Position numbers and translations under genes: made by a program
Notes under the pieces: generated by a model
Told to the model about the DNA's origin: nothing
What the model saw: the letters and a program-made list of their open reading frames with translations, nothing else
Databases searched by the model: none
IMG/VR virus record: IMGVR_UViG_3300020312_000068
Span: 1-64,000 of that record
Strand: one strand, 5' to 3'
Length of the DNA stretch: 64,000 bases
Source of the DNA: a virus
In this document: positions 18,020-43,000 of the stretch, in pieces
Position numbering within the stretch: position 1 is the first letter of the stretch
Layout: each line of letters starts with the position of its first letter

Positions 18020-18139
18020 ATGACGAAACAACAAAACGATACGACAATGCGGTTGTTATTGTCCGTAGCTTCATATTTGCTACTTACCTTATCACTAATT
18101 GCTTTATTATTAGTGGTGTCATTCGGCATTGGTAGATGA
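18020..18139 (+). CDS. Putative 39-aa single-pass membrane protein
   Basis: ATG 18020 follows an AGGGAG ribosome site by 5 nt and the frame ends in an ATGA overlap with the methyltransferase gene. A short polar N-terminus (MTKQQNDTTMR) is followed by a 24-residue hydrophobic helix rich in Leu. The good ribosome site and the coupling to the next gene support expression. Function unknown. Confidence 0.5.
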   Translation: MTKQQNDTTMRLLLSVASYLLLTLSLIALLLVVSFGIGR

Positions 18140-19089
18140 GAGACACAATATTATATGGTGACTGTCGTGAAACTCTTGGTAATCTCAAAGCACAGATTCA
18201 AGTGGGTGTTGCTGAGAGACCAAGGATGTGTGTCACATCTCCACCTTATTATGGTTTAAGAAACTATGGTAATGAAGAGAAGCAAATAGGTCAGGAGCAG
18301 ACTCCTGAAGAATATATCCAAAACTTAGTAAACGTATTCAGGGAGGTTCGAGATGTGCTCGCAGATGATGGAACTTGTTGGCTTAATATTGGCGATAGTT
18401 ACTATAATTACAGACCTGGAAGGGGACAAGGATTGGTCAAACAGACAGTCTCAAATTCTAAGCAAGACTTACCAGATGTGTGTGCTCGTAGAGGAAATAG
18501 ACTCGACGGACTCAAAGAAAAAGATTTAATAGGTATACCATGGATGCTCGCATTCGCATTGAGAGCAGACGGATGGTATTTAAGACAGGATATAATATGG
18601 CACAAGCCTAATCCTATGCCTGAGTCAGTCAAGGATAGATGTACCAAATCACATGAGTATATCTTTCTATTAACCAAGAACCACAAGTATTATTATAACC
18701 ATGAAGCAATTAAAGAGAAGGCAGTGGGTGAACGATGGGGTGGTAACACTCCTATTAATATGGATAATACTAAGGATGTTGACAATCAGTTTAGTGGTTT
18801 AACAAGACCACGTAAGATGGTGTATGAGAAGAGGAATAGAAGATCAGTGTGGAAGGTAGCTACTAAACCATTTAAAGGAGCACACTTCGCTGTGTTCCCA
18901 CCTGAGTTGATTGAACCATGTATCAAGGCAGGATCAGAGGAGGGTGACATCGTACTCGATCCCTTTATGGGCAGTGGTACAACAGCACAAGTGGCACAGT
19001 CACTGGATAGACACTGGTTAGGATGTGAACTACATGAAGAGTACAGTAAAATAATAAACAAGCGAGTACCTGGCAAACTACCCCTTTAG
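18136..19089 (+). CDS. Site-specific DNA methyltransferase, beta class
   Basis: A 317-residue amino-methyltransferase. Motif IV TSPPYYG is at residues 34-40 and motif I DPFMGSGTT at 275-283: the order IV...I defines the beta class, and a TSPPY form is common among N4-cytosine enzymes, though N6-adenine cannot be excluded. GTCWLNIGDSY and WYLRQDIIWHKPNPMPESV are further family segments. The middle region (~190-235) would carry target recognition. It would methylate phage and perhaps host DNA. A second methyltransferase and a PD-(D/E)XK nuclease candidate follow within 2.5 kb, so it may protect against that nuclease or against host restriction. Confidence 0.85.
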   Translation: MRDTILYGDCRETLGNLKAQIQVGVAERPRMCVTSPPYYGLRNYGNEEKQIGQEQTPEEYIQNLVNVFREVRDVLADDGTCWLNIGDSYYNYRPGRGQGLVKQTVSNSKQDLPDVCARRGNRLDGLKEKDLIGIPWMLAFALRADGWYLRQDIIWHKPNPMPESVKDRCTKSHEYIFLLTKNHKYYYNHEAIKEKAVGERWGGNTPINMDNTKDVDNQFSGLTRPRKMVYEKRNRRSVWKVATKPFKGAHFAVFPPELIEPCIKAGSEEGDIVLDPFMGSGTTAQVAQSLDRHWLGCELHEEYSKIINKRVPGKLPL

Positions 19090-19173
19090 TGGACGGTTGA
19101 TAAACTGTCACACTGTTCCCCCATTTAGAATAATAAGGCTATATTATACTATTATACACAACGGAGGGCTACC
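19090..19173 (+). promoter_or_regulatory. Intergenic region with AT-rich promoter-like sequence
   Basis: 84 bp after the methyltransferase gene. A small inverted repeat (GACGGTT / AACTGTC, 19092-19109) is followed by TATACT at 19145-19150 and TATACA at 19153-19158, then GGAGG at 19163-19167. No matching -35 is evident and the exact -10 cannot be chosen. It probably holds the promoter and ribosome site for the next genes. Confidence 0.4.
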
Positions 19174-19918: not shown

Positions 19919-20481
19919 AAGCAGGTAGTTTCAATGCCATCACACCACCACTAGATTCACCTAGGATGAGAGATTTCCTTAACAGGTGCCTAGGATTGAA
20001 GTGGAAGGAGGGTACAGCACATGAACATCAGGTACGTGACATACTTGATGAGATGGAGATAGTGTATGAGTACCAACCTAATGGTTCACAACAGTTCCCT
20101 GATTTCAATGTACCATCACGTTGGGGAACGATACAGTTAGAGTGTAAGAGTAGTCAGCGTGCCAATCCCACATATAATAGTGGGAGACCGCACATGGGTG
20201 GACTATACATATTCTGCTCTAAGAAATACGATCAGACTACCATATTCTATGGTGATGACGTACTCACTCTTGAGAAGAGAGCATTGTATGATGAGTACCT
20301 AGCGGAACAGAAGGCACTGTTGGAGAAGTATCAGGCACGTGCTGACTGGAAAGATGACCGTGGGTTTGACTTTTACAATAGAGAGATGTATACTCAGAGT
20401 GGTGGAGCGCAATATACTGACTACTTTACCCATAAAGATCGTAAACTATGTGAGGACAATGTATTTCGTAGTTTCAACTAA
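19915..20481 (+). CDS. Putative PD-(D/E)XK nuclease
   Basis: 188 residues. An acidic helix with HEHQVRDILDEMEIVYEY (Glu37) precedes FPDFNVP (Asp63) and IQLECKSSQ (Glu76, Lys78): a textbook PD-X12-ECK arrangement of restriction-endonuclease-fold nucleases. YIFCSKK follows, as expected for the strand after the active site. The C-terminal third is charged and helical and could bind DNA. It is only slightly shorter than simple type II enzymes. Its gene lies between two DNA methyltransferase genes and overlaps the second by 23 nt. A restriction-like, nicking or recombination/repair nuclease are all possible. Confidence 0.65.
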   Translation: MKAGSFNAITPPLDSPRMRDFLNRCLGLKWKEGTAHEHQVRDILDEMEIVYEYQPNGSQQFPDFNVPSRWGTIQLECKSSQRANPTYNSGRPHMGGLYIFCSKKYDQTTIFYGDDVLTLEKRALYDEYLAEQKALLEKYQARADWKDDRGFDFYNREMYTQSGGAQYTDYFTHKDRKLCEDNVFRSFN

Positions 20482-21340
20482 GTGTGAAGAGCACTTATGG
20501 GGATGGGAGGAGAATTCCTTTCATGCCTGTATCACTGACCCACCATACGGTATGGGCATGGAAGAGTGGGATCATAGTGTCCCAACAGTAGAAATATGGC
20601 AAGAAGTATACAGGACACTAAAACCTGGAGCATTCTTGTTATCATTCTGCTCACCACAGTTGTATCATCGTATGGCATGTGCGGTAGAGGACGCAGGATT
20701 TGAGATTAAAGATCAGATCATGTGGATGACCACTACTAAGATGCCTAAAGTAAACAGATTGAAACCAGCACATGAACCTATTGTTGTGGCACAGAAACCC
20801 ACAGAGGGTAGTCTCAAAGATAACTTTGAGAAATATGGAGTGGGTTACATTAACACTGTGGATACGAGGATACCATGGGATAAGGATCCACCGAAGGGGT
20901 GGGTCGCTCAAGGTGGAAAACGTAGAACCTTTGGTAAGGAGGGTAATACGAAAGGTGGTGGAGCTAAGTATGGTACTGTAGATGCTAATCCTGACGGTAG
21001 ATACCCATCTAATATCATAGGTGAGGTACAAGAGGAGCACCAGAAGTATTTCTATGCGCCTCGTGCTACTCGTAAAGAGAAGGGAGCAGACAATGACCAT
21101 CCAACAGTTAAACCAGTATCATTGATGGAGTATCTCATCAAGATATACTGTCCACCTAAGGGTATGATATTAGATCCTTTCTGTGGTACAGGCACCACTG
21201 GTGTCGCTGCTCTACCCACTGAACGTAGTTTCTTGGGTATTGAGATGAATCCACATTATGCTGATATCGCAGAGCGACGGTGTGCGGATGCTGAACTGCC
21301 CACTGAGTTCTGGCAAGCACCTGTAGATGAGGTACAATAG
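20459..21340 (+). CDS. DNA methyltransferase, beta class, DPPY type
   Basis: From ATG 20459 the protein has 293 residues. Motif IV DPPYGMG is at residues 27-33 and motif I DPFCGTGTTG at 239-248, the beta-class order. PGAFLLSFCSPQLYHRM and DNDHPTVKPVSLMEYLI are typical of DPPY amino-methyltransferases. The open frame reaches back to 20339, but that region is inside the nuclease gene. The region around residues 125-205 (Gly/Lys-rich, KGGGAKYGT) may be the target-recognition part. Coupling to the nuclease gene suggests they are expressed together. Confidence 0.82.
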   Translation: MYFVVSTKCEEHLWGWEENSFHACITDPPYGMGMEEWDHSVPTVEIWQEVYRTLKPGAFLLSFCSPQLYHRMACAVEDAGFEIKDQIMWMTTTKMPKVNRLKPAHEPIVVAQKPTEGSLKDNFEKYGVGYINTVDTRIPWDKDPPKGWVAQGGKRRTFGKEGNTKGGGAKYGTVDANPDGRYPSNIIGEVQEEHQKYFYAPRATRKEKGADNDHPTVKPVSLMEYLIKIYCPPKGMILDPFCGTGTTGVAALPTERSFLGIEMNPHYADIAERRCADAELPTEFWQAPVDEVQ

Positions 21341-21690: not shown

Positions 21691-22019
21691 CCAAGGGATT
21701 AGTCAAAGAGAATCTCTATGGTGAGATGGGAGTACTGGACAGTTTATCCAGACCGAGACTATTTGAAATAGTAATCCGCTACAACTTGAGTAAGTGGGAT
21801 TACCTAGTCACACTGGCACATGAAATGATACACTGTAAGCAACGTGTATACAAGGAGTATGTGACCAGATATAATAGAAACTATTGGTACAAGTCATTTG
21901 TACCTGACTCTGTTCCGTATCTTGATGAACCATGGGAGGTTGAGGCACGGAAGTGGGAGTATTACTTAGCACATGAGTCCATAAGACAAGGGATAATTAC
22001 CACAGTGACACCTGAATAA
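21570..22019 (+). CDS. Putative zinc metallopeptidase (SprT-like size)
   Basis: ATG 21570 is preferred over an in-frame TTG at 21552. In the 149-residue product, LVTLAHEMIHCKQRVYKEY carries an HExxH zinc site (His84, Glu85, His88). The later PWEVEARKWEYYLAHESI could supply the third zinc ligand through an acidic residue. Size and context recall SprT/WSS1-like or ImmA-like peptidases, which act on DNA-bound proteins or regulators, but which family is not clear. It is encoded just before an SF2 helicase. Confidence 0.65.
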   Translation: MSHSIFYSGHHQQKRITDAFIDWFVHKYIGKRYKLDFHVVTKGLVKENLYGEMGVLDSLSRPRLFEIVIRYNLSKWDYLVTLAHEMIHCKQRVYKEYVTRYNRNYWYKSFVPDSVPYLDEPWEVEARKWEYYLAHESIRQGIITTVTPE

Positions 22020-22062
22020 GTGTCCACAATACCATGATTCCTCGTTAGTTTGCCCTTATAAT
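22020..22062 (+). promoter_or_regulatory. Promoter with GTGTCCAC box and TATAAT
   Basis: GTGTCCAC at 22020-22027 and TATAAT at 22057-22062 are separated by 29 nt; no -35 match is present. The same box and spacing occur upstream of other genes in this window (23895, 25312 and, on the minus strand, 27104). The predicted start near 22069 gives a short leader containing GAGG before the helicase ATG at 22085. Confidence 0.6.
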
Positions 22063-22083
22063 AGGGACACTAACGAGGTTTTT
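22040..22083 (+). terminator. Hairpin plus T-run overlapping the helicase promoter and ribosome site
   Basis: CCTCGTTAGT (22040-22049) pairs perfectly with ACTAACGAGG (22069-22078), with an inner CCCT/AGGG (22053-22056/22063-22066), followed by five T. This looks like an intrinsic terminator for the upstream operon. The loop contains the TATAAT of the next promoter, and the 3' arm contains the GAGG ribosome site of the helicase gene, so read-through transcripts would have that site sequestered while transcripts starting at the internal promoter would not. Confidence 0.6.
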
Positions 22084-22084
22084 A

Positions 22085-23311
22085 ATGCTTTCATTACGTC
22101 CACATCAAGTAAGGACAATCAACAGTATGAGAACTGTTGATAAGGGTACAATATACATTCCTACTGGTGGTGGTAAGACAAGGTGTATGATTGAGGATCT
22201 AAAGTTCAGACTCAGTGGTGCTACAGATAAGATCACAGTTGTGGTCGCACCACGTATCATGCTTGCTCTACAATTAGCAAATGAGTTTGACACAGCATTA
22301 AATGAGGAGCGTTACGTTATTGGTCATGTACACAGTGGTGAGACTGATGACTGGTGCTCTACAGATACAGATGAGATACGCAATTTCTTAGAGGGAGCGA
22401 TCTCATTTGGTAACAATCCCATCATATTCTCTACATATCATTCACTTCACAAGTTGGTTGAGGCAGGTGTGTATGCTGATCATGTATACTATGATGAAGC
22501 ACACAATAGTACTCAGCGTAATTTCTTCCCAACTGTAGCATCATTCAAGACTACACACGCATATTATTTCACTGCTACACCAAAGAATAGTTCTAAGCAC
22601 GCACGTGGTATGAACAATGAGGATGTGTATGGACAGAATATCATCACAGTTGATGCTAATGAGTTACTAGACTGTGGAGCGATCATCCCACCAACAGTAC
22701 AAGTACATACTATTGACACTGTTCGCACTAAGAAAGAGATAGCAAACATTGATGCTACCACTGTTATACGTGTTGTTGATAATGGTGACGCAGAGAAGGT
22801 GCTCGTTGCTGCCCCATCAGCACGTATCATCAACAGAATGATAGCACATACTGATCTATTCATGGAGTTAAAAGCACGTGGATACACAGTATTACGCATC
22901 ACATCTAAGCATGGAGCATTTATTGATGCTAAGAAGGTGAATAGAAAGGAGTTCTTCAAGCAGTTACACATCATGGGTGCGGATAAGAATGCTAAATTCA
23001 TCCTCTTCCACTATTCTATACTCTCTGAGGGTATCAATGTTGCGGGACTAACTAATGTAATCCTGCTACGTAACCTAGGTGTGGTTGAAATGGCGCAGAC
23101 TATTGGTCGTGTGATCCGCTTAGATAAGGAGGATTCACAGAATATAAATGATGGCACACTTAAACCACGTGCTTATCAGAACTATATCAAACCAACTGGA
23201 ATTGTATCTGTACCAGTGTATACTAACCACAATAAGAACACTGCTACAAGAGTACAAAGAACAGTTAATACTATCTTCAATGAGGGTAAACCAGCAACAG
23301 CATGGATATAA
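22085..23311 (+). CDS. SF2 DEAH-box helicase/ATPase
   Basis: 408 residues with ordered SF2 motifs: IYIPTGGGKT (motif I, residues 26-32), DEAH (137-140), FTATP (motif III, ~162-166), SEGINVAG (motif V region) and QTIGRVIRL (motif VI, ~338-346). It is a compact two-lobe helicase without obvious extra domains, of the restriction-subunit/UvsW-like group often seen in T4-like phages. It would use ATP to remodel or translocate on nucleic acid in recombination, replication or restriction-like processes. It lies downstream of the nuclease and methyltransferase genes but has its own promoter and upstream terminator. Confidence 0.82.
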   Translation: MLSLRPHQVRTINSMRTVDKGTIYIPTGGGKTRCMIEDLKFRLSGATDKITVVVAPRIMLALQLANEFDTALNEERYVIGHVHSGETDDWCSTDTDEIRNFLEGAISFGNNPIIFSTYHSLHKLVEAGVYADHVYYDEAHNSTQRNFFPTVASFKTTHAYYFTATPKNSSKHARGMNNEDVYGQNIITVDANELLDCGAIIPPTVQVHTIDTVRTKKEIANIDATTVIRVVDNGDAEKVLVAAPSARIINRMIAHTDLFMELKARGYTVLRITSKHGAFIDAKKVNRKEFFKQLHIMGADKNAKFILFHYSILSEGINVAGLTNVILLRNLGVVEMAQTIGRVIRLDKEDSQNINDGTLKPRAYQNYIKPTGIVSVPVYTNHNKNTATRVQRTVNTIFNEGKPATAWI

Positions 23312-23342
23312 CCCTTAGAGACGCTTCTAGAGGTCACACAGA

Positions 23343-23924
23343 ATGATTAATACCATGTTCTCAATACCATTAATTCACTACAATGTGGATAGATGGTTGT
23401 ATAAAAGAAATAAACTACTCGATCTCATTCCCCACGATGATATGACGCTAGGGGATGAGACTGTAGTATCAAATTATCAAGGTGCTAACAATCAGTGCGC
23501 GTTGATACAAACTATACTAGAGGATGAGATTAAACTATTCAACAGACAGTTGAACTGTAACGCACAAATAGTAAGAGCATGGTTTGAACAAGCAGATAAT
23601 AGTATGTTTCATCCACCCCATACACATGGTCATGGAGGATGGAGCGCAGTATTATTCTTAGACTATAATCCTGAGCACCATACACCCACCATATTCATCA
23701 GTCCATTCAATCATTTCATTGATGGATCGCAATTACAATACAGACCAGAGTGTAAGGAGGGAGATCTTATACTATTTCCTAGTATGCTATTACATTACAC
23801 ACTACCTAACACATCAAATGTGCGTAGAACAGTGTGTTCATTCAATCTAACAGTGGATATGGATAATATCCCACTCGCATGGACACCTGAGATAGTGTCC
23901 ACTGATCCACCACAAGCATCCTAA
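23343..23924 (+). CDS. 2-oxoglutarate/Fe(II) oxygenase
   Basis: 193 residues of the small TIGR02466-like group. HPPHTHGHGGWSAVLFLDY gives His93/His95, KEGDLILFPSMLLHYTLP gives distal His151, and SNVRRTVCSFNL gives Arg161/162 for 2-oxoglutarate. It differs from the oxygenase at 5656 in most residues, so it is not a recent copy. An in-frame ATG at 23355 is a possible later start. The GTGTCCAC box of the next promoter lies inside its last codons. Substrate unknown. Confidence 0.78.
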   Translation: MINTMFSIPLIHYNVDRWLYKRNKLLDLIPHDDMTLGDETVVSNYQGANNQCALIQTILEDEIKLFNRQLNCNAQIVRAWFEQADNSMFHPPHTHGHGGWSAVLFLDYNPEHHTPTIFISPFNHFIDGSQLQYRPECKEGDLILFPSMLLHYTLPNTSNVRRTVCSFNLTVDMDNIPLAWTPEIVSTDPPQAS

Positions 23925-23936
23925 AAGCGTTATAAT
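23895..23936 (+). promoter_or_regulatory. Promoter with GTGTCCAC box and TATAAT
   Basis: GTGTCCAC at 23895-23902 and TATAAT at 23931-23936 are separated by 28 nt; no -35 is visible. The box lies within the 3' end of the upstream coding region. The -10 is 6 nt before an ATG at 23943 and 4 nt before the inverted repeat that starts at 23941. Confidence 0.6.
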
Positions 23937-23940
23937 ACAT

Positions 23941-24005
23941 GTATGGAAGGCAAGGGTGACGGATACCACACCAGAACACGTCTTTAAATCGAACCTCTTC
24001 CATAC
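23941..24005 (+). ncRNA. Candidate ~65-nt structured RNA (or 14-codon leader peptide)
   Basis: GTATGGAAG (23941-23949) is perfectly complementary to CTTCCATAC (23997-24005). Inside, AGG/CCT (23954-23956/23994-23996) can extend the stem after a 5' bulge, and GACG/CGTC (23958-23961/23979-23982) can form a second helix. TATAAT ends 4 nt before the stem, so the RNA would begin at or close to the 5' arm. It is not a recognisable tRNA. The same stretch holds a short frame 23943-23987 (ATG to TAA, 14 codons), so a leaderless peptide is the competing reading. Confidence 0.35.
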
Positions 24006-24026
24006 CTATTCACTTGCTATTATCCA

Positions 24027-24158
24027 ATGAGCATCGTTAACCCAACAGTTCACCCATCATTTGTGTTCTACGCATTCAGATCATGCCAGAACGGTAATGA
24101 CATCCTACAGCGTATTGATGATTTGATTCTTGACAATGTATTTGTTGGTGCTAGATAA
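24027..24158 (+). CDS. Hypothetical protein (43 aa)
   Basis: ATG 24027 to TAA 24158. It begins MSIVNPTVHPSFVFYAFRS, and the C-terminal part (DILQRIDDLILDNVFVGAR) is helical. The ribosome site is weak. It lies between the candidate RNA and the next conserved-looking small gene. No family recognised. Confidence 0.45.
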   Translation: MSIVNPTVHPSFVFYAFRSCQNGNDILQRIDDLILDNVFVGAR

Positions 24159-24177
24159 CAGTAATCACTGAGGTTAA

Positions 24178-24420
24178 ATGCCCAGACAATATCCTTTCTC
24201 AAGAGGAGATTATGTTCAAGTAGATGGGGAGGAGGGATACATTAATTGTATCTCTCCCCATTACTTTACTCTCACTACGCACCAGTGGGAAGCGCCTGGT
24301 ACTCTACACGGAGTAAGACAAGTCAATGTACTTATCTTCAGGCATCTTTGGCCTAACATCATTTTCATTTCTAAACATCATGTGGATTCCGATGAACACG
24401 ATTCAGATCAAGGCATGTGA
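24178..24420 (+). CDS. Hypothetical protein (80 aa)
   Basis: GAGG precedes ATG 24178 at normal spacing. The first ~60 residues are beta-prone (RGDYVQVDGEEGYINCISPH, then YFTLTTHQW), resembling small proteins common in cyanophages, possibly an SH3-like barrel. The C-terminus is His/Asp-rich and overlaps the next gene. Function unknown. Confidence 0.6.
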   Translation: MPRQYPFSRGDYVQVDGEEGYINCISPHYFTLTTHQWEAPGTLHGVRQVNVLIFRHLWPNIIFISKHHVDSDEHDSDQGM

Positions 24421-24589
24421 CCAAGAGGTACACGTCGCCATAGAAAAGAAGAGAAGAGGATATTATTGGAGTTATGAACATCTAAACAAGTTCTATGGTC
24501 CATTCAAGGGCAAAGAAGATTGTTTAACTGATGCTCGCACGTATAGCAGGTATGGTACTACAAATAAACAACTCATTTCATCAACCTAG
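24380..24589 (+). CDS. Hypothetical basic protein (69 aa)
   Basis: The conserved-looking part is KACDQEVHVAIEKKRRGYYW followed by SYEHLNKFYGPFKGKEDC. ATG 24380 is one of three possible starts (24326, 24380, 24392); the first 54 nt of the longer frame lie within the previous gene and look non-coding. The C-terminus overlaps the oxygenase gene. Likely a small beta-hairpin protein; no family recognised. Confidence 0.5.
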   Translation: MWIPMNTIQIKACDQEVHVAIEKKRRGYYWSYEHLNKFYGPFKGKEDCLTDARTYSRYGTTNKQLISST

Positions 24590-25145
24590 TGATGTAGAAA
24601 GAAGACTGTTAGTAATAGATCGTTTCAAGGATATAATACTACAGGAGTTCTTACCACTAACACTGGAGTTCAAAGACCTATCAACTTACCAAGATGATTA
24701 CATTAACAGTAATGGTCAAGGGTATACGATAGGTCTTGAACAGTATGAAAAAGCAAAAGAACAAGACAGTGGATGGGCAATAGCACCATTATGGTATGAT
24801 GATTATGAGTATACACGTAACAGTATGCTCATGCCCAAGACAACTAAACTATTGAAGTGGATAGGACATACAACGTATGCTGGCATAACAGCATTACATC
24901 CTGATCATGGACTAGACTGGCACCATGATGATGATCCATTTCCTAACAAGTTACAGATGAGAGTATTCTATACTCTAAAGACATGCGGAGGATCATACAT
25001 TGAGGTAGAGGAGACAGAGAAGAGGATTAAGAAGAGGTACTTCAAAGAACAAGAATACATCATATTTCATAGTAAGAAGAGACACAGAGTATGGAACGAA
25101 GGTATTCTACCAAGGTATTCTCTTGTAATTGACGTTTTGAAATAA
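24552..25145 (+). CDS. Aspartyl/asparaginyl hydroxylase-like oxygenase
   Basis: ATG 24552 gives 197 residues; an earlier in-frame ATG at 24531 is possible. Key elements are GITALHPDHGLDWHHDDDP (His124, Asp126 as likely iron ligands), QMRVFYTLKTCGGSYI, FKEQEYIIFHSKKRHRVWN (His178, Asn182) and RYSLVIDV (Arg188). The GI..LH.D...R.F..L...E...F...HRVWN...R..L..D pattern matches aspartyl/asparaginyl beta-hydroxylase-type cupins. It is the fourth 2OG-type oxygenase of the window. Substrate unknown; a Lys/Arg-rich KRIKKRYF loop precedes the distal His. Confidence 0.68.
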   Translation: MVLQINNSFHQPSDVERRLLVIDRFKDIILQEFLPLTLEFKDLSTYQDDYINSNGQGYTIGLEQYEKAKEQDSGWAIAPLWYDDYEYTRNSMLMPKTTKLLKWIGHTTYAGITALHPDHGLDWHHDDDPFPNKLQMRVFYTLKTCGGSYIEVEETEKRIKKRYFKEQEYIIFHSKKRHRVWNEGILPRYSLVIDVLK

Positions 25146-25192
25146 ATGTTTAATTAAATGTGTATGGGCGTAGATACTCTTGGATAGTATCC

Positions 25193-25222
25193 TGAGAATA
25201 AAGGGTGCTTATTGAGAATAAA
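25193..25222. repeat. Direct repeat TGAGAATAAA, 20-nt period
   Basis: TGAGAATAAA occurs at 25193-25202 and 25213-25222, in the 237-bp gap between the hydroxylase-like gene and the gene at 25383. Two sites about two helical turns apart are typical of an operator or protein-binding pair. I see no gene or tRNA in the rest of this gap apart from the promoter at its 3' end. Confidence 0.35.
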
Positions 25223-25311
25223 TCAGCGGAAATGCTAGTAAACATGCGGTGTCGTTGTGGTCTAAGGCCGTCGCCTACCAAAAGTCAAGCAGCCTTGTGA
25301 TACTTTTTAAA

Positions 25312-25354
25312 GTGTCCACCTTTTGCCCAAAACTGAGACTTTTGGCCTTATAAT
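25312..25354 (+). promoter_or_regulatory. Promoter with GTGTCCAC box and TATAAT
   Basis: GTGTCCAC at 25312-25319, extended by CTTTTGCCC, and TATAAT at 25349-25354 are 29 nt apart. The minus-strand promoter at 27062-27104 has the same extended box and the same distance. A perfect 10-bp inverted pair, ACTTTTGGCC (25338-25347) and GGCCAAAAGT (25391-25400), brackets the start region. Confidence 0.65.
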
Positions 25355-25382
25355 TAGTTTATAGTCAATCAGAGAGTTTCCA

Positions 25383-25676
25383 ATGGCAACGGCCAAAAGT
25401 GGCACAAAACCGAGAAAGCGCAGAGTTTCACCAAAAAAGGTGAAAGATGTGACTTTTGACGTTTCTGAGATTTCTACAGCTATTAACATAATAGCCATAA
25501 AAGATCAGAAAGTGTGTATAACCTTCCAAGGTCAAGAAAAGGAGTATGTTTACAACTATTCTGACAACTTGGCAGCTTTTGTGAAAGAGTTAGAAAAGTT
25601 CACAAAAGAGCAACATCTATCATTAGGGAAATACTTTAACGGTTTAGTTAAAGACGGCAAACTCACTCAGAGCTGA
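25383..25676 (+). CDS. Hypothetical protein with basic N-terminus (97 aa)
   Basis: The first ~22 residues are strongly basic (KSGTKPRKRRVSPKKVKD) and probably disordered. The rest is a compact alpha/beta domain (VCITFQGQEKEYVYNYSDN, then FVKELEKF). The sequence suggests a small nucleic-acid-binding protein, but no family is recognised. It is the first gene of a three-gene + unit driven by the promoter at 25312. Confidence 0.6.
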   Translation: MATAKSGTKPRKRRVSPKKVKDVTFDVSEISTAINIIAIKDQKVCITFQGQEKEYVYNYSDNLAAFVKELEKFTKEQHLSLGKYFNGLVKDGKLTQS

Positions 25677-25861
25677 TGAAAATGGCTAAAAGCTATAAGA
25701 ACAGGAGAAATCCTGGAAAGCAGTCGTTTGGCCAGAAAAAGAGAGAATACTTTGAAAGTATGGATCTCATGGATTCTGGTTACATTGACAAAATGTCCAA
25801 TAAAACACGTATTCAGGCAAATTGTGACCTAGAATACGACGACCCCAACGATTACGACTAA
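25676..25861 (+). CDS. Hypothetical protein (61 aa)
   Basis: ATG 25676 overlaps the previous stop; ATG 25682 (MAKSYKNRRN) is an alternative. The N-terminal half is basic (NRRNPGKQSFGQKKREYF) and the C-terminus acidic (LEYDDPNDYD). No family recognised. Confidence 0.55.
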   Translation: MKMAKSYKNRRNPGKQSFGQKKREYFESMDLMDSGYIDKMSNKTRIQANCDLEYDDPNDYD

Positions 25862-25863
25862 CC

Positions 25864-26046
25864 ATGGACTATAGCACAACCGTCACACACTACCATGCAG
25901 GACTGTTGAGTCCTGATGAATGTGTCAAAATGATACAATTTCTTCTAGACACGGACAAACTCCTGGAATTCCCAGAATTGTTCGAGGTCTCAGATTATTA
26001 TATCATGGAAGGATTGTGCTATTATGTCCCTAGTCCAGTTGAATAA
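25864..26046 (+). CDS. Hypothetical protein (60 aa)
   Basis: ATG 25864 lies 2 nt after the previous stop. HYHAGLLSPDECVKMIQFLL is a helix-rich segment resembling the beginning of some 2OG-oxygenase N-termini, but the protein ends at 60 residues with no iron ligands, so it may be a remnant or an unrelated small protein. It ends 39 nt before the convergent minus gene. Confidence 0.5.
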   Translation: MDYSTTVTHYHAGLLSPDECVKMIQFLLDTDKLLEFPELFEVSDYYIMEGLCYYVPSPVE

Positions 26047-26059
26047 TTGACCACAGTCA

Positions 26060-26080
26060 GCTGGATTTTTTAGATCCAGC
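26060..26080. other. Hairpin between convergent genes
   Basis: GCTGGAT (26060-26066) pairs with ATCCAGC (26074-26080), loop TTTTTAG. There is no T-run after the stem on either strand, so it is not a standard intrinsic terminator, though it sits where both converging units end. The flanking ACCACAGTCAGCTG resembles the element repeated at 26312 and 27109. Confidence 0.45.
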
Positions 26081-26085
26081 GCGAT

Positions 26086-26259
26086 TCAGTCTTCAAATTT
26101 GAGTTCGTGCTCTGCTTCAATGACTGATTCCCAGAGGGAGTCGAATGCGTCATCGTGAGCAGGTGGCAAGTCTAAACCTGCCAACTCGCTGAACACCTCG
26201 CACAGGAGTGCATGCTGTGCTGAGTTGAGTCTGATCGTGAAGAGGTCGTTGATTTCCAT
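26086..26259 (-). CDS. Small acidic protein with LPPxxxDDA motif (57 aa)
   Basis: On the minus strand, ATG at 26259 runs to TGA at 26086. The sequence starts MEINDLFTIRLNSAQHALLC, contains LDLPPAHDDAFDSLWESVIE and ends in HELKFED. The LPP...DDA..SL.E segment matches the product of 26632-26775, so the two are paralogues. The ATG is 6 nt after its -10 (TATTAT), suggesting a leaderless transcript. Function unknown. Confidence 0.6.
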   Translation of the reverse strand: MEINDLFTIRLNSAQHALLCEVFSELAGLDLPPAHDDAFDSLWESVIEAEHELKFED

Positions 26260-26265
26260 GTCTTA

Positions 26266-26271
26266 ATAATA
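26266..26271 (-). promoter_or_regulatory. Minus-strand -10 TATTAT, 6 nt before an ATG
   Basis: Reading the minus strand, TATTAT (26271-26266), six bases, then ATG 26259. About 30 nt upstream is CTGTCC from the inverted repeat at 26301-26322, close to the position of the GTGTCCAC box in other promoters. The box is a weaker match than elsewhere. Confidence 0.45.
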
Positions 26272-26294
26272 CACGAAAATGGGGACTAGAAAGC

Positions 26295-26322
26295 AAAAAA
26301 GGGACAGTATCTCAACTGTCCC
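26295..26322 (-). terminator. Intrinsic terminator of the minus-strand operon
   Basis: Read on the minus strand, GGGACAGT and ACTGTCCC form a perfect 8-bp stem with a 6-nt loop, followed directly by six T (26300-26295). It lies just after the last gene of the 27035-26340 operon. Confidence 0.75.
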
Positions 26323-26339
26323 TAGGCAGCTGGAATTTT

Positions 26340-26498
26340 TCATTCCAGCGTTGTTATTGTGCCCTCGCTGACGATGATTCCATCTGCATAGTAGGAATCG
26401 AAATACGATTCCAACTCTTCTTGCAGGTGTCTCCATTGTACAGACTCTTCAACAGGCACGGAGATGTCAAAGCAAACTCTGAATTTCTCTACTGACAT
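26340..26498 (-). CDS. Hypothetical protein (52 aa), last gene of minus operon
   Basis: ATG at 26498 to TGA at 26340. It begins MSVEKFRVCFDISVPVEESV and ends EGTITTLE; mixed alpha/beta with acidic middle (LQEELESYFDSYY). The first 10 nt overlap the upstream gene's end. A hairpin (CTGGAAT/ATTCCAG) covers its stop codon. No family recognised. Confidence 0.6.
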   Translation of the reverse strand: MSVEKFRVCFDISVPVEESVQWRHLQEELESYFDSYYADGIIVSEGTITTLE

Positions 26499-26635
26499 AG
26501 ATCCTCAAACCTGCGAAGGATTTCAATTTGAATGTCCTCTTGGGACATCATGGCGAGGTTGCCTGTTTCGGTTGCCTCTTGCATGACATCCTCATAAAGA
26601 CTTTCAAGGATGGATTCGTGATGAAGGGTGCTCAT
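26489..26635 (-). CDS. Hypothetical helical protein (48 aa)
   Basis: ATG at 26635 to TAG at 26489. The sequence is helical and acidic: MSTLHHESILESLYEDVMQE then SQEDIQIEILRRFEDLCQ. It overlaps both neighbours by a few bases, the pattern of a translationally coupled operon. No family recognised. Confidence 0.6.
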   Translation of the reverse strand: MSTLHHESILESLYEDVMQEATETGNLAMMSQEDIQIEILRRFEDLCQ

Positions 26636-26775
26636 GAATAATCGAAGGGTGAAGGTTCAGTAATTTTCTCAAAGAGGGAATGATATGCAGCGTCCTCTTC
26701 GAGGTGAGGCGGAAGACCTAAATCTTGAATGAAAAGAATTGCATTCACGAGTGCGGTTTCTTCTGCCTCGGTCAT
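26632..26775 (-). CDS. Small acidic protein with LPP motif (47 aa)
   Basis: ATG at 26775 to TGA at 26632. The sequence MTEAEETALVNAILFIQDLG is followed by LPPHLEEDAAYHSLFEKITE. The LPP...EDA..SLFE segment parallels the protein of 26086-26259. It is 11 nt after the first gene of the operon and overlaps the next by 4 nt. Function unknown. Confidence 0.6.
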   Translation of the reverse strand: MTEAEETALVNAILFIQDLGLPPHLEEDAAYHSLFEKITEPSPFDYS

Positions 26776-26786
26776 TCGTAATTCCC

Positions 26787-27035
26787 TCACGCTGCCACCC
26801 CCTCAGGGTGGCAAAGGTCAACGATGGTTTGCTGAGTCACTTCACGCACTGAGTCCACGTGCTTGAAATACTGATTGATGTGCTTGCTCGTAGTACGAGA
26901 GTAGTACACGTCAGTTTTGAAGTGTCCGAGGTCAAGAGAGAATCCTGCTACGGGTGTCTCATAAGAGAATAGTACAGAAGTACCATTGTTGAATGAGAGT
27001 TCAGTTTGGTTTGCACCGAGTTGTCTTAGGATCAT
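26787..27035 (-). CDS. Conserved-looking hypothetical protein (82 aa), first gene of minus operon
   Basis: ATG at 27035. The sequence QTELSFNNGTSVLFSYETPV, then a beta segment and YSRTTSKHINQYF, resembles small proteins widespread in cyanophages and cyanobacteria, but I cannot name the function. It has its own promoter with a GTGTCCAC box upstream. Small beta-sheet protein with a C-terminal helix. Confidence 0.65.
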   Translation of the reverse strand: MILRQLGANQTELSFNNGTSVLFSYETPVAGFSLDLGHFKTDVYYSRTTSKHINQYFKHVDSVREVTQQTIVDLCHPEGVAA

Positions 27036-27061
27036 TTTAGTCCGATTTGGTTGACTCTTTT

Positions 27062-27104
27062 AATATAGTCCATATGCAGGCAGTGCAGGGGCAAAAGTGG
27101 ACAC
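27062..27104 (-). promoter_or_regulatory. Minus-strand promoter with GTGTCCAC box
   Basis: Read on the minus strand, GTGTCCAC (27104-27097) continues as TTTTGCCCC and is followed after 29 nt by TATATT (27067-27062), then about 26 nt to ATG 27035. Box, extension and spacing copy the plus-strand promoter at 25312-25354. The box is one arm of a palindrome with TGTCCAC at 27114-27120. Confidence 0.65.
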
Positions 27105-27108
27105 CTTG

Positions 27109-27129
27109 TCAACTGTCCACAGGCAGCTG
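27109..27129. repeat. 21-bp intergenic repeat (second copy at 26312-26332)
   Basis: TCAACTGTCCACAGGCAGCTG at 27109-27129 agrees in 19 of 21 positions with 26312-26332 and partly with 26050-26063. Each copy lies just beyond the 3' end of a minus-strand transcription unit, so it may be a transcript-end element or a binding site. Confidence 0.5.
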
Positions 27130-34077: not shown

Positions 34078-37000
34078 ATGCCAGTAGAGCAATCCTCGTG
34101 GAAGGTAGCGTCGTGGGTCACCCCCTCAACTCAGGTAACAGGTGACCTAATTGACTCTACCGTATCACCAGAAAGTAGATCTAGAATTTCCGATAGAATT
34201 GAGGAACAGATTCCTCAGTTTATCAGAGAAGATTATGGTGACTTTGTTACCTTCCTTAAGTATTACTATAAGGGATTAGAGTTAAAGGGCAATCCAGTTG
34301 ATATTGTCCAGAATATAGATGAATACTACAATATAGACAAGTTAAATGAACTTGTAGAGAAGACTACATCGTCATCTGGGATAACTTCTACTACAACTAC
34401 CATTGACGTTGCTAATACTAGGGACTTCCCGTCTGAAGGATTGGTAATGATCGATGATGAGATCATATACTACTCAAGTAAGTCTCAGACCCAGTTAAAG
34501 GGGTGTACAAGAGGGTTTCACGCAACAACTAAGGTAGGTACCCTTAAGGAATTTACATTCACTTCATCTATAGCAGCATCACATGACTTTGGTGCTGATG
34601 TAATCAACCTAAACAACCTATTACCTCTATTTTTACTCCAAAGGTTCAGAGATCAGTTTTCTGCGTCTTTCCCATCGAAGTTTGCCGAAGGAATACAGCA
34701 ATCTTCCGTTACTAAGCGTCTTAAGGACTTCTATGCTGCTAAAGGTACTTCTCGTTCCTTTAAGTATCTCATTAGAGTGCTATTTGGCGTAGAGTCAACT
34801 ATACAGTATCCAAAAGAGAGAATTTTTAAGCCATCTGACGCATTCTACACTGTCAGAGAGGTTATTCGTGCTACAGCAATATCTGGTAACCCAGTAGAGC
34901 TAACTGGAGAGGTTTTATACCAAGCAAACGATCCAAATGACCCAAATGTCAACGATGCGCGGATTTATGTTAAATCTGTAGTTGAAGTCTTCACCGAAGA
35001 TGGAAAAATCTACGAATTGGACGTAGATACGGAAAATGGTGCTGGAACGTTCACTACTCCGTACAAATCAATCCTTACTGAAGATGTAAGCTCCAATTTA
35101 GACGAAGATGTCATTTCTGTTGACTCTACTATCGGTTGGCCTGAGAAAAACAGTAGTTTCCGTGTTAATAACGAGATTATTGAATATACTGACAAAACAG
35201 TTACTCAATTCCTTGGTTGTACCCGTGCTAGACAGAATACGACCAATGCTCCTCATATTGCGGGTTCTGAAGTCAGTTCATCCTTTGAAATTTACGGATA
35301 TTCCAATAGAGACCAAACTAAGATCAGTTTGAAGGTTTATGGCGGTACTAGAGGTGTTGAACTTGTTTCTGGCGGTAGATATTACCTTCAAGACTCAAAA
35401 GTCACTACTCCTGCTGCTCCAGGCTTCGATTCACTCGATCCCCTCTGGGATAGCTTCGTTTATAACGTTAAGAAGCTTGTAAACGCAACTGGGGCGGTTT
35501 TAGACGCTCCTAACAACGATGGAAGCGTTGTAGTTACAATAAGTACGGATCAAGACCATTTCTTCAAGCGTGACGACATAGTTACGATTTTAAACGCTCC
35601 AGAAGACGTATATAACTCACAATTCCGAGTTTTGGGTGTTGGTAGCAATCAAAGCTTCCAAATCCTACTTCCTTCGACTCCAATCGCAGGAGTTAACCAA
35701 ACTTTCCTCTGTGCGCGAGAATTTGCGAAATCTACGTCTTCAGACACTTCAATTCGCACAAAAGTCGAAAATACGCCTTCTGACGTTCAAAATGTCTATA
35801 GATCTTCTGAAAACGCGATTATTGCGTCTCCAGGAATTCCTGGACACGAAATCGGTCCATTTGGAGCTGGAGATCTAGATCCAGGCAATCAACGCTATTT
35901 GAAGCGAATTCCGCTTACTACAATCACAAAATCGATAAAAACGGCAACTCCAGTCGGTCAAGTCGGAATTGGCGTTAATGGAGTTCCATTTTTCTCATAT
36001 AAGTCGGAAAACACGAAATTATACGGTGGAGTCAAATCTATTACCGTTATTAACCCAGGTGACGGATATGACATCACAAATCCACCAATAGTTGAATTTG
36101 AACCTATATGGCGTGCTGGAACCAATTTTAACCTTAATCAAAGAATTAGAAACAGTTTAGGATACAGATATAAGAATATCGGTAGTGGAAAGAGTGCTGA
36201 ACTTGGTAGTGAGCCAACTCATACAAATGCTAACTTAGTACAAGATGGTTCTTGTATATGGCAATATGAGGGTATATCTGCTGAGGCAACTGTTAGTGTG
36301 TCTGGTCGTGTATATGCTATCAACGTAACTAACGGTGGTTCTGGATATACATCTGTACCTACAGTGTCTATTACAGGTGGTGGTGGGACTACACAGGCAT
36401 CTGCTACTGCTACGGTTACTAATGGTGTCGTTAATGCCATCTCAGTGACTGCTGAAGGTACTGGGTATACATCTGCCCCCACAGTCACTATTACTGGTGG
36501 TGGAGGCATCGATGCGACTGCTACAGCAGTTGTTCGTGGTGGATTGACCGCTGAGGGTATTACAATAACAAATCCTGGATCTAACTATGATACTAGACCA
36601 TTTGTTACTCTAATATCAGGTAGTGGTGCTGTTGCTTATCCATCTATTGTTAATGGTAGAATTGTTTCTATCATCCTGACATTTGGTGGTAGTAACTACT
36701 ATGGTCCTCCTGACGTTGTTATTACTGGTGATGGTGTTGGTGCTGTTGCTTTTGCGACTATTGATGGAAGTACCCAGACAGTTACCTCTGTTACTGTCAC
36801 TAATGGTGGTATTGGATATACTGCTGGTAAAACATTTGTAAATATCGTTTATCCAGGATCTGGTGCTACTTTCCAGGTTGAACTTCCAATATTAACCGAA
36901 AATACTGCTGCTACTCCAGAAGAACTTGGTGTAACTACAAATGAACTTGTAGCACCTAAAACAGCTGACCTTAATAATGGAGTTTCCATTAAAGGTGCTA

Positions 37001-40000
37001 ACTACGGAATTTATGGTGGGGAATATGGATATCTTTATAACCCAAGAAGGTTACGTTTCCTTTTAGGAGATAACGTTAGTGATAATGCCACTAACTCAGA
37101 ATTAAACCCAACTAGACATTCTCCTATTCTTGGATGGGCATTTGACGGTCATCCAATATACGGTCCTTATGCTTATGTTGATAGAGAGAATAAGAATCCA
37201 TATAATCAGCTAACTCAGATGAGAAGCTCTTATAGGGTAAAATCTAGTAGAGATGCTTTGATTACTGGTCTAACTGACCAAATGGGTAAGTATATTGAAG
37301 ATTATGAGTATATCGAAGGATCAGGTGATCTTGATCAATATAATGGAAGATATTGCGTAACCCCAGAATACCCTGGTGGTGTATATGCTTATTTCTGTAC
37401 ACTAGATGGTTCTACAGGTAATCCTAAGTTCCCATACTTTGTTGGTCCTGAGTTCTATTCACAGGCAGATAGTATTAACTGGAAGGGTAATGGACTACAG
37501 AGGAACTTCACAGAAGATGCTTCAAGATATAAGCGTCCCTACATCTATACTGATACATCTATTGTTAGGAGAAAGGAATTAGGCGATCCTGTTGAATATG
37601 TTCTTGCTATGGAGGATGCTACAACTCCTTTAGTGCTAGAGAGTGATGATGGTGATGGAACAGATATTGAGTTTATTGGATTTGTTGATATTGGTATTGG
37701 TTACTATGACTACTTCCCAACTATTAAAGGTGGTGCTGTAGATTCATTATTTGTTTCTGCTACTAATAGGTATTTCTCATCTGGTTTAGATACTTATCTT
37801 ATCGAAGGTGCTGGATTTAACTATAAAGTCAATGATAGACTTATATTTGATGAAACAGGTACTGGTGGATCAGGTATATCTGCTAGAATCTCACGTATTA
37901 CTGGTGCTGCTGTTAATACCTTATCATATTCAGTGGATTCTACTACTGATGTCATAACTGGAACTATGGGAACAGCAGATGCCCATTATATCAAACCAGG
38001 TGAAGGTATAGACATCTCTATTGGTAATAACTTAATTACAAGAGATATCAAGACTAAGGTTATTACAACCAATAATGTTGATGTATATCACTTTAAGTAT
38101 TTTGATTTAACAAACTTCTACATCAGTTCTCCAGGTAGAATAGTACAAGCTAATTTAACCATTACTGGTGGTGAGAGTTATACTAATGGTACATATAATG
38201 GTGTCATCCTAACTGGTGGTAGTGGAACAAATGCTTCTGCCAATATTACAGTTAGTGGTAATGAAGTCACAGCAGTCTCTATACAGAATCAAGGTAAGAA
38301 TTATGTAGATGGAGATGAGTTAACATGTGCTGCCACTGCTATAGGTGGTACTGGTAAAAACTTTAAAGTTGATATAGGTAACGTACTTAAGACAGGTGGT
38401 ATATCACAAGGATACTGGACATTCTTTGCTGGTAGTGGTGGAGTACCTGGTACATACACTAAAGTACCTCTTAAGAACGCTTCTACGTCCTCTGGAGAGG
38501 GTGCTGAGTTCACTATAGTCGTTGCTGCTGGTGGTGGAGTAGAATCCGTAACAGTAACTAAGGAAGGTAGTGGATATTACCCTGGTGAGCAATTAGATCC
38601 TGTAGATTCTGATATTGGTGGATGTACTGGATTCTATCTAACACCTAATGCTGTTAATCAAGAATTTACTGGTAGAGGAAGTGCTTCTCACCAGTTGAGT
38701 GTTGGTGATGAGATTGTTGTCACAGGAACTAACCCATCTGACTATGATGGAACTCATATTGTATCTGGATATACGACTGAAAGAAGATTCCAGTTTAAGA
38801 AACCAGTAGGAATCATTACAGATACTGCTATAGCAACGACTACTGAAGTTTTCGTCAAAGAAGCGAAATTAGATCTTATTAATGGTCATCAATACAGGTT
38901 TGATACCACAGATGCTTCTAATGCTGGTAAGAGACTTGAATTTACCTTTGATAAAGAGAATACTAATGTATTCACATATAAGAATGTAACTGATGTTGAA
39001 AATGACCCTCAAACTGGTCAACAACAGTCTATCACTATATCTCTAGATGATGTTCCAGGAACATTATTCTATTTTGATATTAATGGTATTAATGGTGGAG
39101 CAGGTAGTTACCTCAGTGTAGTAAATGACCCATATTTGGGATCTAATACTATTGTAACTACTCCTAGTACTACATCAATGACATTTACCCTGGCAAGAGA
39201 ACCAGAAGGTAATTACAACACAACTAATACACTATCATACGCAACTAACTCAATATTCCCTGCTGGTGGTATTGCTGCTATTAACATTGGTGACCCAGGC
39301 AGAAACTACTCTACTATTCCTAAATTTACTGGGGTAGAACGTGCTGGTGCTGGTGCTACTGCTCAATGTACAATATCAGGTGTAGTTGAGGATATCGCTG
39401 TACTTGAAGCAGGAGTTGACTATAATGGAAGTAACCCACCTGTCATTGTTTGTTCAATGCCAGATTTCCTTGATCTAACTCTAGAACAGGTCTTTGGTAC
39501 CTTTACTGTTGGTGATATTGTTATATCTCAAACTACTCTTGGTACTGATACTGCTCGTGGTAGGGTTATCTCATGGGATGCTAATACCTCTACATTAAGA
39601 GTACAACCACTTCGCAACAATTTACAAGGTACAGCAAATCGTGGTTTCATTATGTTTACCACAGGTAATGCTAATACTAATAAGATTTTCTCTAGTTCAA
39701 ACCAAGCTGTAATTGCTGCTATAGGTGGTACCCAGGCGCAGGTTGCTGCTGTTGTTCCTTCAACTGGTCCTGAAACTGGACAGATACAGACTATTGCTGT
39801 TAACAACGGTGGAAGTAACTATAGGACTGCTCCAACTGTTTATATTGATGATCCTTGGTATGGTGGTGTACTTACTGTAAGTATTAACAGTCAGAATACA
39901 TCTGCTAACTTTACTCCTGGTACATACACTGGTGTAACACAAGAATCTGTTGCTCCTACTGGTGGAGATAACTCTGAATTTACTATTGTTATTGATAGCA

Positions 40001-43000
40001 ACCAAGATGTAGCATCAGCAACTGTAACTACTGGTGGTAATGCTTATGCTCTTGGTGATTTAATCACTATTAATGGTGAGAAGATCACTGGTGGTGGATC
40101 TGCTGATGACTTTGTACTTAAAGTAGAGTCATTGACATTTGTTAGAAAGGCAGTTACATCTACTACTATTAATGCTTCTATTGATGAGGTAATTGTAACT
40201 AACTCTGGTTCAGGTTATCTATCTGCTCCTGAAGTTGAGATATCTGGTGGTACTGGAATTAATGCTTCTCTGAGAGCAGAGATCATTGATGAGACTGTTA
40301 AGAAAGTTATTATAGAAAATGCTGGAACTAAATTCCAAAATCCACCTATCATAACCATTAAACAAAATTTAGGAACAGGTGCTTCTATCCTATTGAAGTC
40401 TACTGATTTGGGTAAGGTTATCAATTTGGGTGGTGATAATATTACTTACAACTACTCACATGATAGAACCCTCAAACCTGCCGTTAACACGACTTATAAC
40501 TTACAACTCACAAGAACTCAAATCGTTGACTTCTTCACTGTTACGGATGGAGGATTCTCCTTCGTTACTAAGCCAACCATCGAGCTCGTTGGTGGAGGTG
40601 GAAGCGGTGCAGTTCTGGATGCTGTTATTGATAACGAAGTTATTCAGGGTATTGAGGTAATCAATCCAGGTAAGGGATATTCATCTACTCCTGCTGTACA
40701 GGCAAAGATGACTCATTCCTTTGTACCTTTACAGTCTAATAGTACTCTTAACTTCCCATATAACACTAAGATTCCTACAGGAACAAAAGTTAAGTTAGTT
40801 GAGGTAGATGGTGGTTTACCAGCTCCTTTACTAGAGAATACTACTTATTATGCTGTTGCTCAAACTATTGCTAATGGTTTAGCAGATAACCAGATTAAGT
40901 TGGCATCTACCTTTAGTGATTCACAAGGTGTTAACCCAACTACTATTACAATCTCTGGTGTACCTACCATTGGACCAGGTGGAACATCCACATTTAATTT
41001 AACTACAACTGACCTAGGTGATAGTATAACTGTTACCATGAAACCAGCAACATTCTCTGTTGGTGAGAAACTATATCAAGGTACTTCTACCGATTCATTC
41101 TCTGCTGTAGGTACAGTCAAGAACTGGGATTCTAAAGGTAGGATTCTCTCTGTTGAAATTGAGCAAGGTGAGTTCTTAGCAGGACAACCTGTATTTGGTT
41201 TACAGACTAAAGCATTTGGTGAAATCCATGAATTTGATAGAGCATTAGCGAACTTTACAGTATCTCCTATTGCTACTGCTACTGCTGAGTTCAAGAGAAC
41301 CACTGGTATTCTTGATCTTAATGAACAGCGTTTATATGACTCTGATAGGTATCAGGAGTTCTCATATGTTGTTAATTCACCTGTTAATGTTAAAGAGTGG
41401 AAGAATCAGTTTAAGACATCTGCTCACCCAGCTGGATTTAAGGTATTAGGTACTCAAATAATTTCACAATCTACCTTTAAGAGGTATCGTAGGAAGTCTT
41501 ATCTGAACTTATCTAACCCAGACCTAGCAGGTTGGTGGGAACCAAGAGAGGGTGATGAGGATCAGTCATTCAATGGTACAACATACTTTACTCCGAAGCC
41601 ATCTGCTTCTAACTCTGGTAAGTTGTCTAGAATTGAGAACTTCTTCTTAGGTAAACCAGATTATACTGCTCTTGTTCCAACTAATGTTCAGATTAGTGGT
41701 AAGCAGCTATTGGATGTTAGAAAGATTCTAAGTGCTGTTGTAGATAAGTTTGATAAGATACAAGATAGAACAGTTACCTTCGATGGGTCTAGTTCTTCTA
41801 TAGTTTCGACAGCTAATAACCAGTTTACTATAACCAACCATGGTTTCATTACTGGTCAAAAGATTAATTATAGTGTACTCTCTGATAGGTATCAGGATGC
41901 TAGAAATCTAATAGTTGCTAATATTGATTATATTGTAGATACCACTTCTGATTGGTTAGAAGCACAATATCCTGCTTTAACAGATGGTACTAAACCAGAT
42001 TATGACAAGGCTAAGTGTTCTAGAGATATTAGGTTCTGTGTTGTTAACTGGACTAATGACTTACGTTATGGTGGTAACTCATTCTCATGGGATGTTGTAG
42101 ATCAGTATATTGGCGGTGTTGGTGTATTAGGTAATAAGTATGCTGATGCTAAGTTCCTTATCCTTAAGAATAAGCAATTAATTGCTGAGGAAGCACTAGG
42201 TATGATGAAGGTGGATTACCCTGCTTTCAGTGTACATAATGGTTCTGATCAAGATTGTTACGATGATATCATCGATGTATTAGAAGCAATCTGCTATAAC
42301 ATGACATATGGTGGTAACAGTGAAGTATATGATGGTGCCAAGTATTATGTTGATGGTAACCATGTTGATTCTGTAGAAACTGAAGTTAACGTCTGTTTCA
42401 ACCATGCTAGAGACCTTGCTATCAAGGTAATGCAGAACTATCCTCTGACACTAGCACATTCTACTCAGCAGCAGTTCTTTGACAGTACAATAACATTTGA
42501 TACTGATGGTTTTATTGATAATAAGGTTGCTGATGCTAGAACTTTAATCCTTGCTAATAAGAATCAGATTGCTGAGACTGCTGTAGACAGGATGGAGACA
42601 CAATATCCTTCTCATGCTGTTACTGGTGGTAGGATTGAGTGTGAATATGATATTAGAGACTTTATCGACGTAATGGTCGAGAACCTTGCTCGTGGTGGTA
42701 ATGATGGTGTCTGGGATGCTGCAAACTACTATGTAACAGGTGGATTTGTTATTGGCGAAGAAGCTGAATCAGCATATGCCTTTGAACAAGCAAAATTAAT
42801 CACACATCTTGTTTTACAGAATAAGACAGTATCTGATATGACAGGTCAGGTAATTGATAATAGTATTACTGTTGATCCTCCTGATGATAAGTGTACTGCT
42901 GTACAGGCAACTGTAACTACTTTATATGATATCGTTATTAATGCTATTACTACACCTCTGGATCATCAGAATGTAACTAGGACTGCTAAGACTGGTGGTA

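Follow-up and report, generated by a model that had tools for sequence, protein, structure and literature searches.

Does the octamer GTGTCCAC, which recurs at a near-constant distance upstream of -10 hexamers in a viral genome fragment, mark a family of regulated promoters, and what kind of factor would read it? The DNA analysed here (the window) is a stretch of 64,000 nucleotides from an 82-kb IMG/VR record which is, by its sequence, a fragment of a T4-like cyanophage. A sequence-only reading of the window had paired the octamer with a -10 at 22020, 23895 and 25312 on the plus strand and at 27104 on the minus strand, and all four boxes and -10s do sit at these coordinates. Exact pairs of the form GTGTCCAC-N20..36-TATAAT occur three times in the window versus 0.02 times in shuffled sequence, with no further match in the rest of the 82-kb record. 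By itself the octamer is not enriched in the window: there are five copies versus 2.4 expected, 13 of 100 shuffles reach five, and the fifth copy, at 43670, lies within a giant ORF. The signal therefore resides in the pairing of box and -10 rather than in the octamer.

Examination of the flanking sequence revealed that the octamer is the right half only of a longer element, a 22-nt near-palindrome with the consensus TGTGACAGTT-N4(5)-AA(G/C)TGTCCAC (right end written AA(G/C)TGTCCACT). Its half-sites, GACAGTT and AACTGTC, are one base further apart in some phages. A GACA-type left half-site is present upstream in all four original sites: GTGACACCTGAATAAGTGTCCAC at 22020, TGGACACCTGAGATAGTGTCCACT at 23895, TGTGATACTTTTTAAAGTGTCCACC at 25312 and GTGGACAGTTGACAAGGTGTCCACT at 27104 (minus strand). 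The dyad spans about -62 to -41, with its centre at about -53, and is followed 28–30 nt later by TATAAT and then by a purine-T initiator. The extension TTTTGCCC, said to be shared by the sites at 25312 and 27104, does occur at both, with a shift of one base between the two copies; in the wider family it is only part of a weak C-rich tract.

The second half-site emerges without having been selected for. Searching IMG/VR with the originally proposed pattern gave many matches, and the flanks of those listed yielded the second half-site; 39 of 81 unique promoters with a gap of 28–30 nt have a CAGTT that ends 6 nt ahead of GTGTCCAC. When promoters are fetched by the box alone, -10 hexamers peak at gaps of 28 and 29. 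The full dyad pattern plus a -10 occurs at at least 120 IMG/VR loci, versus 6 when the wrong gap of 40–43 nt is required. In the window, at least five such promoters are present (Table 1).

Table 1. Coordinates of the promoter elements and the nested hairpin in the window.
Feature	Sequence	Position	Strand	Remarks
Promoter 1 operator dyad	GACACCTGAATAAGTGTCCAC	22007..22027	+	overlaps upstream ORF stop codon (22017-22019)
Promoter 1 -10	TATAAT	22057..22062	+	predicted start A22069; before uvsW-like helicase ORF 22085-23311
Promoter 2 operator dyad	GACACCTGAGATAGTGTCCAC	23882..23902	+	within 3' end of 2OG-Fe(II) oxygenase ORF 23343-23924
Promoter 2 -10	TATAAT	23931..23936	+	predicted start A23943; short genes 3'
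Promoter 3 operator dyad	GATACTTTTTAAAGTGTCCAC	25299..25319	+	intergenic
Promoter 3 -10	TATAAT	25349..25354	+	predicted start A25361; before ORFs 25383-25676, 25676-25861 and 25864-26046
Promoter 4 operator dyad	GACAGTTGACAAGGTGTCCAC	27097..27117	-	top match of the record, score 38.9
Promoter 4 -10	TATATT	27062..27067	-	predicted start G27055; before minus-strand ORF 27035-26787
Promoter 5 operator dyad	AGGGACAGTTGAGATACTGTCCCT	26298..26322	-	diverged box at 26307; absent from the sequence-only reading
Promoter 5 -10	TATTAT	26266..26271	-	predicted start A26259, the A of an ATG
Weaker sixth site	GACGGTTGATAAACTGTCACA	19092..19112 (box 19105)	+	precedes ORF 19174; TATTAT 29 nt on; score of 15.5, under the cut
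Terminator-like hairpin	CCTCGTTAGT..ACTAACGAGG-TTTTT	22040..22083	+	loop contains the promoter 1 -10

Evidence that these sites function as promoters comes from the predicted start point, which was likewise not selected for. In 212 family members aligned on the -10, position +1 is a purine in 97% and position +2 a T in 78%. A purine-T initiator is found at 33 of 48 sites from whole-genome scans, versus 15% after TATAAT hexamers that lack the box, and at four of the five sites in the window (the exception, 22020, has AC). Start codons lie close downstream of the predicted starts. At 23943 (+) and 26259 (-), as in several relatives, the predicted start base is itself the A of an ATG, and so transcripts from these two promoters might be leaderless. 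A -35 element is mostly missing: 133 of the 212 members match at most three of its six bases. Nineteen members match five or six—more than do shuffled spacers—and some members may therefore work independently of an activator.

The distribution of the element was examined by scanning whole genomes with a model trained on IMG/VR promoters (P-SSM7 being among the training phages) that permits half-site spacings of 6 or 7 nt; most S-RIM2 sites need 7, and are missed with a fixed 6. The model's rate in shuffled sequence is 0.07 per 180 kb, the shuffles preserving dinucleotides only. It finds 5 sites in this record, 4 in Syn9 (at 44790, 46306, 47220 and 49094), 11 in P-SSM7, 8 in S-PM2, 4 in P-HM2, 5 in S-RIM2, 9 in S-RSM4 and 7 in an IMG/VR relative. 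All eight T4-like cyanophages, this one included, thus carry 4–11 sites versus 0.03–0.08 expected, while the same scan finds none in the T4 genome; the sites of S-PM2 and P-HM2 are mostly diverged. The proposal of a promoter family, present on both strands, in which the spacing is fixed and the -35 poor is thereby borne out, and the family is conserved in relatives.

The positions of the sites are also conserved. Most good sites fall in one block of short genes in Syn9, S-RIM2, P-SSM7, S-RSM4, the IMG/VR relative and this record. A box lies directly before the helicase gene in all five phages checked (this phage, Syn9, S-RIM2, S-PM2 and P-SSM7); in S-PM2 and P-SSM7 it scores below the cut and is still recognisable, and in P-SSM7 a terminator is nested in it. 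A second box–gene pair, that of window ORF 19174, is common to P-SSM7 and this phage. Among 142 genomes of the Prochlorococcus genus and the Synechococcus family, the dyad was found on a single contig, and that contig is phage: phage genes lie on it, among them two that are DNA methyltransferase-like, as in this window. The full promoter form is matched three times in 257 Gb of prokaryote genomes. Of the earlier suggestion of a phage or host activator, the host-regulon part is consequently unlikely, as the picocyanobacterial genomes examined lack the dyad.

In the window, the block contains two DNA methyltransferases, a superfamily II helicase, 2OG-Fe(II) and Asp/Arg-hydroxylase oxygenases, and short ORFs, and is surrounded by baseplate hub/lysozyme, baseplate wedge and tail-fibre proteins. 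The nearest DNA matches, via the helicase, are Synechococcus and Prochlorococcus phages. The methyltransferase genes lie at 18136-19089 and 20339-21340 (+), the first sharing 69% identity with its P-SSM7 relative. Two giant ORFs, of 5915 and 2221 aa (34078-51825 and 53373-60038, +), occupy a structural region beside the baseplate wedge genes. Judged by their predicted functions, the genes of the block are probably early. The earlier reading had likened the logic of these promoters to that of T4 MotA middle promoters; a box does take the place of the -35, but the combination of short ORFs, helicase and methyltransferases fits early expression at least equally well.

Part of the family combines promoter and terminator. 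A terminator-like hairpin followed by a T tract lies in the spacer of 46 of the 212 members, versus 2 after shuffling. The hairpin at promoter 1 (-21 kcal/mol, z -4.9, T5 tail) ends just before the helicase ATG, and these bases would both terminate the upstream operon and launch the one that follows. At promoter 5 it is the operator itself that forms a hairpin in RNA, followed by TTTTTT; this palindrome can be read as an intrinsic terminator for the upstream minus-strand genes as well as a putative activator site. In many cases the operator overlaps, or directly abuts, the stop codon of the upstream gene (as at promoter 1, and in S-RIM2 and S-PM2), and with a nested terminator one short stretch thus closes one operon and opens the next. 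Terminator-like palindromes with a recurring CAGCTG (GGCAGCTG or CAGCTGGA) are also seen between block genes at 26060, 26330 and 27120. The window contains no match to Rfam RNA elements.

Motif, spacing, initiator, conservation, restriction to phages and nested hairpins are computed properties of these sites; how they are used can be proposed from them. The fixed distance, the dyad symmetry, the centre near -53 and the missing -35 fit a dimeric activator bound upstream of the polymerase. We consider it likely that these are activator-dependent phage promoters, probably early, served by the cyanobacterial RNA polymerase and a putative dimeric DNA-binding protein. The host RNA polymerase, carrying its main sigma factor, would read the -10 and initiate at the purine 7 nt on; since most family promoters lack a -35 it would need help, and this would come from the protein dimer on the dyad, contacting polymerase from just upstream. 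The promoters would control the block of mostly short genes around the uvsW-like helicase, probably early in infection, and some family members would have an intrinsic terminator nested between box and -10. An activator at -45 to -52 had been suggested previously; an activator-type site is still the best reading, but it is the 22-nt dyad, and not the octamer, that would be bound. A more specific proposal is that T4-like cyanophages have a new activator of their own, not related to MotA and virion-borne or else made first, which recognises GACAGTT-N4/5-AASTGTC about -53 and turns on a whole operon block, with terminators inside its promoters; this we offer as a tentative possibility only.

The same dyad could instead be the operator of a phage repressor that shuts the promoters off as infection proceeds. 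Dyad symmetry and promoters with autonomous -10s are compatible with this, as is the minority of members that have a -35, yet the site lies upstream of the core region bound by polymerase and at a near-fixed distance from the -10, and neither that distance nor a missing -35 would be required for repression; we regard a repressor as unlikely. Somewhat less probable again is that no dedicated protein is involved and host RNA polymerase reads the box as an upstream element, through its alpha subunit tails or a sigma factor. Early genes, if that is what these are, do need host machinery able to start immediately, but the high information content, the symmetry and the two-step spacing of the half-sites set the box apart from A/T-rich upstream elements, and the box sequence is unused by host-group genomes.

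Several dyads and spacers form hairpins followed by T tracts, as would be expected if the palindromes acted in RNA alone, as terminators or processing hairpins, with the -10s incidental. However, the fixed -10 spacing, the +1 initiator and a G:G mismatch within the consensus dyad favour a site read in DNA, making an RNA-only role very improbable. Chance recurrence of the octamer, to which its lack of enrichment in the window would lend itself, can be practically dismissed in view of the pairing relative to shuffles, the wrong-spacing control, the gap peak and the sites in multiple phages, and is refuted by conservation before orthologous genes.

If the controlled genes are early, the activator would have to be virion-borne, made first, or a host protein with other native targets. 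We searched for it among 48 small P-SSM7 proteins that T4 lacks and that are conserved in four or more other cyanophages. The Pfam and PHROGs matches listed for these proteins include no helix-turn-helix regulator, and a single "transcriptional regulator": PHROG 385, a protein of 76 aa (P-SSM7, L152:248-478) found in all six cyanophages compared. It is without relatives in Pfam and without convincing ones in the PDB, and is thus a weak lead only. To our knowledge, T4-like cyanophages, which are abundant ocean viruses, lack MotA, AsiA and Alt/Mod, and the promoters described here bear on how such phages take over host transcription without them. As the operator, spacing and start point are precisely defined in several phages that can be cultured, DNA pull-down should lead directly to the activator, and in genomes of uncultured cyanophages the motif can help to sort candidates for early genes.

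The sequence-only reading knew of no described cyanophage element of this form, and here it was probably wrong. In Syn9, a novel regulatory element reportedly controls the early genes, while the middle promoters are said to be host-like (Doron et al., ISME J, 2016); the elements are reportedly conserved among T4-like cyanophages and abundant in genomes and metagenomes. The promoter family described here is probably this Syn9 early-gene element, the comparison being with the reported properties of that element. Both belong to T4-like cyanophages and are phage promoters that are not host-like, and Syn9 has four of our sites. The symmetric form of the dyad, its exact spacing, the initiator and the terminators nested in the promoters come from the present analysis, and may or may not be contained in the earlier work. 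The class is thus likely not new, and these promoters add a further member to what is probably a known kind, with a putative activator. Papers on P-HM2, Ma-LMM01, S-CREM1 and AR9, and reviews, do not describe the motif.

Class I and II activator sites of the CRP/NtcA type are centred at -61.5 or -41.5. The present promoters resemble them in having a dimer site at a constrained distance upstream of the -10, but differ in sequence (GACAGTT/AACTGTC) and in their centre near -53. With T4 MotA middle promoters they share a phage-specific box plus -10 in place of a -35; the MotA box, however, is centred near -30 and acts with AsiA. The difference in placement noted by the earlier reading thus stands, and a MotA-like placement was rejected given the dyad centre and the lack of sites in T4. 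In earlier literature, the early promoters of cyanophages were regarded as sigma-70-like, and motA and asi were noted to be missing; cyanomyoviruses are without motA and asiA (PMC2984593). The PeSL cassettes of T4-like phages, as cited in later work, reportedly unite a promoter and a stem-loop terminator in one short intergenic unit (Arbiol 2010; Comeau 2014), an arrangement that the members with a hairpin may resemble; here, the stem-loop is found in only part of the family, and the operator dyad is the constant part.

Two IMG/VR contigs (L316 and L318) carry repeated GTGGACAGTTTAGAAAGTGTCCACT palindromes without a -10 at the right distance, and these perhaps represent a different element. 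In the window, the minus-strand short ORFs at 26085-26800 resemble diverged copies of each other (LPPHLEEDAAYHSLFE / LPPAHDDAFDSLWE).
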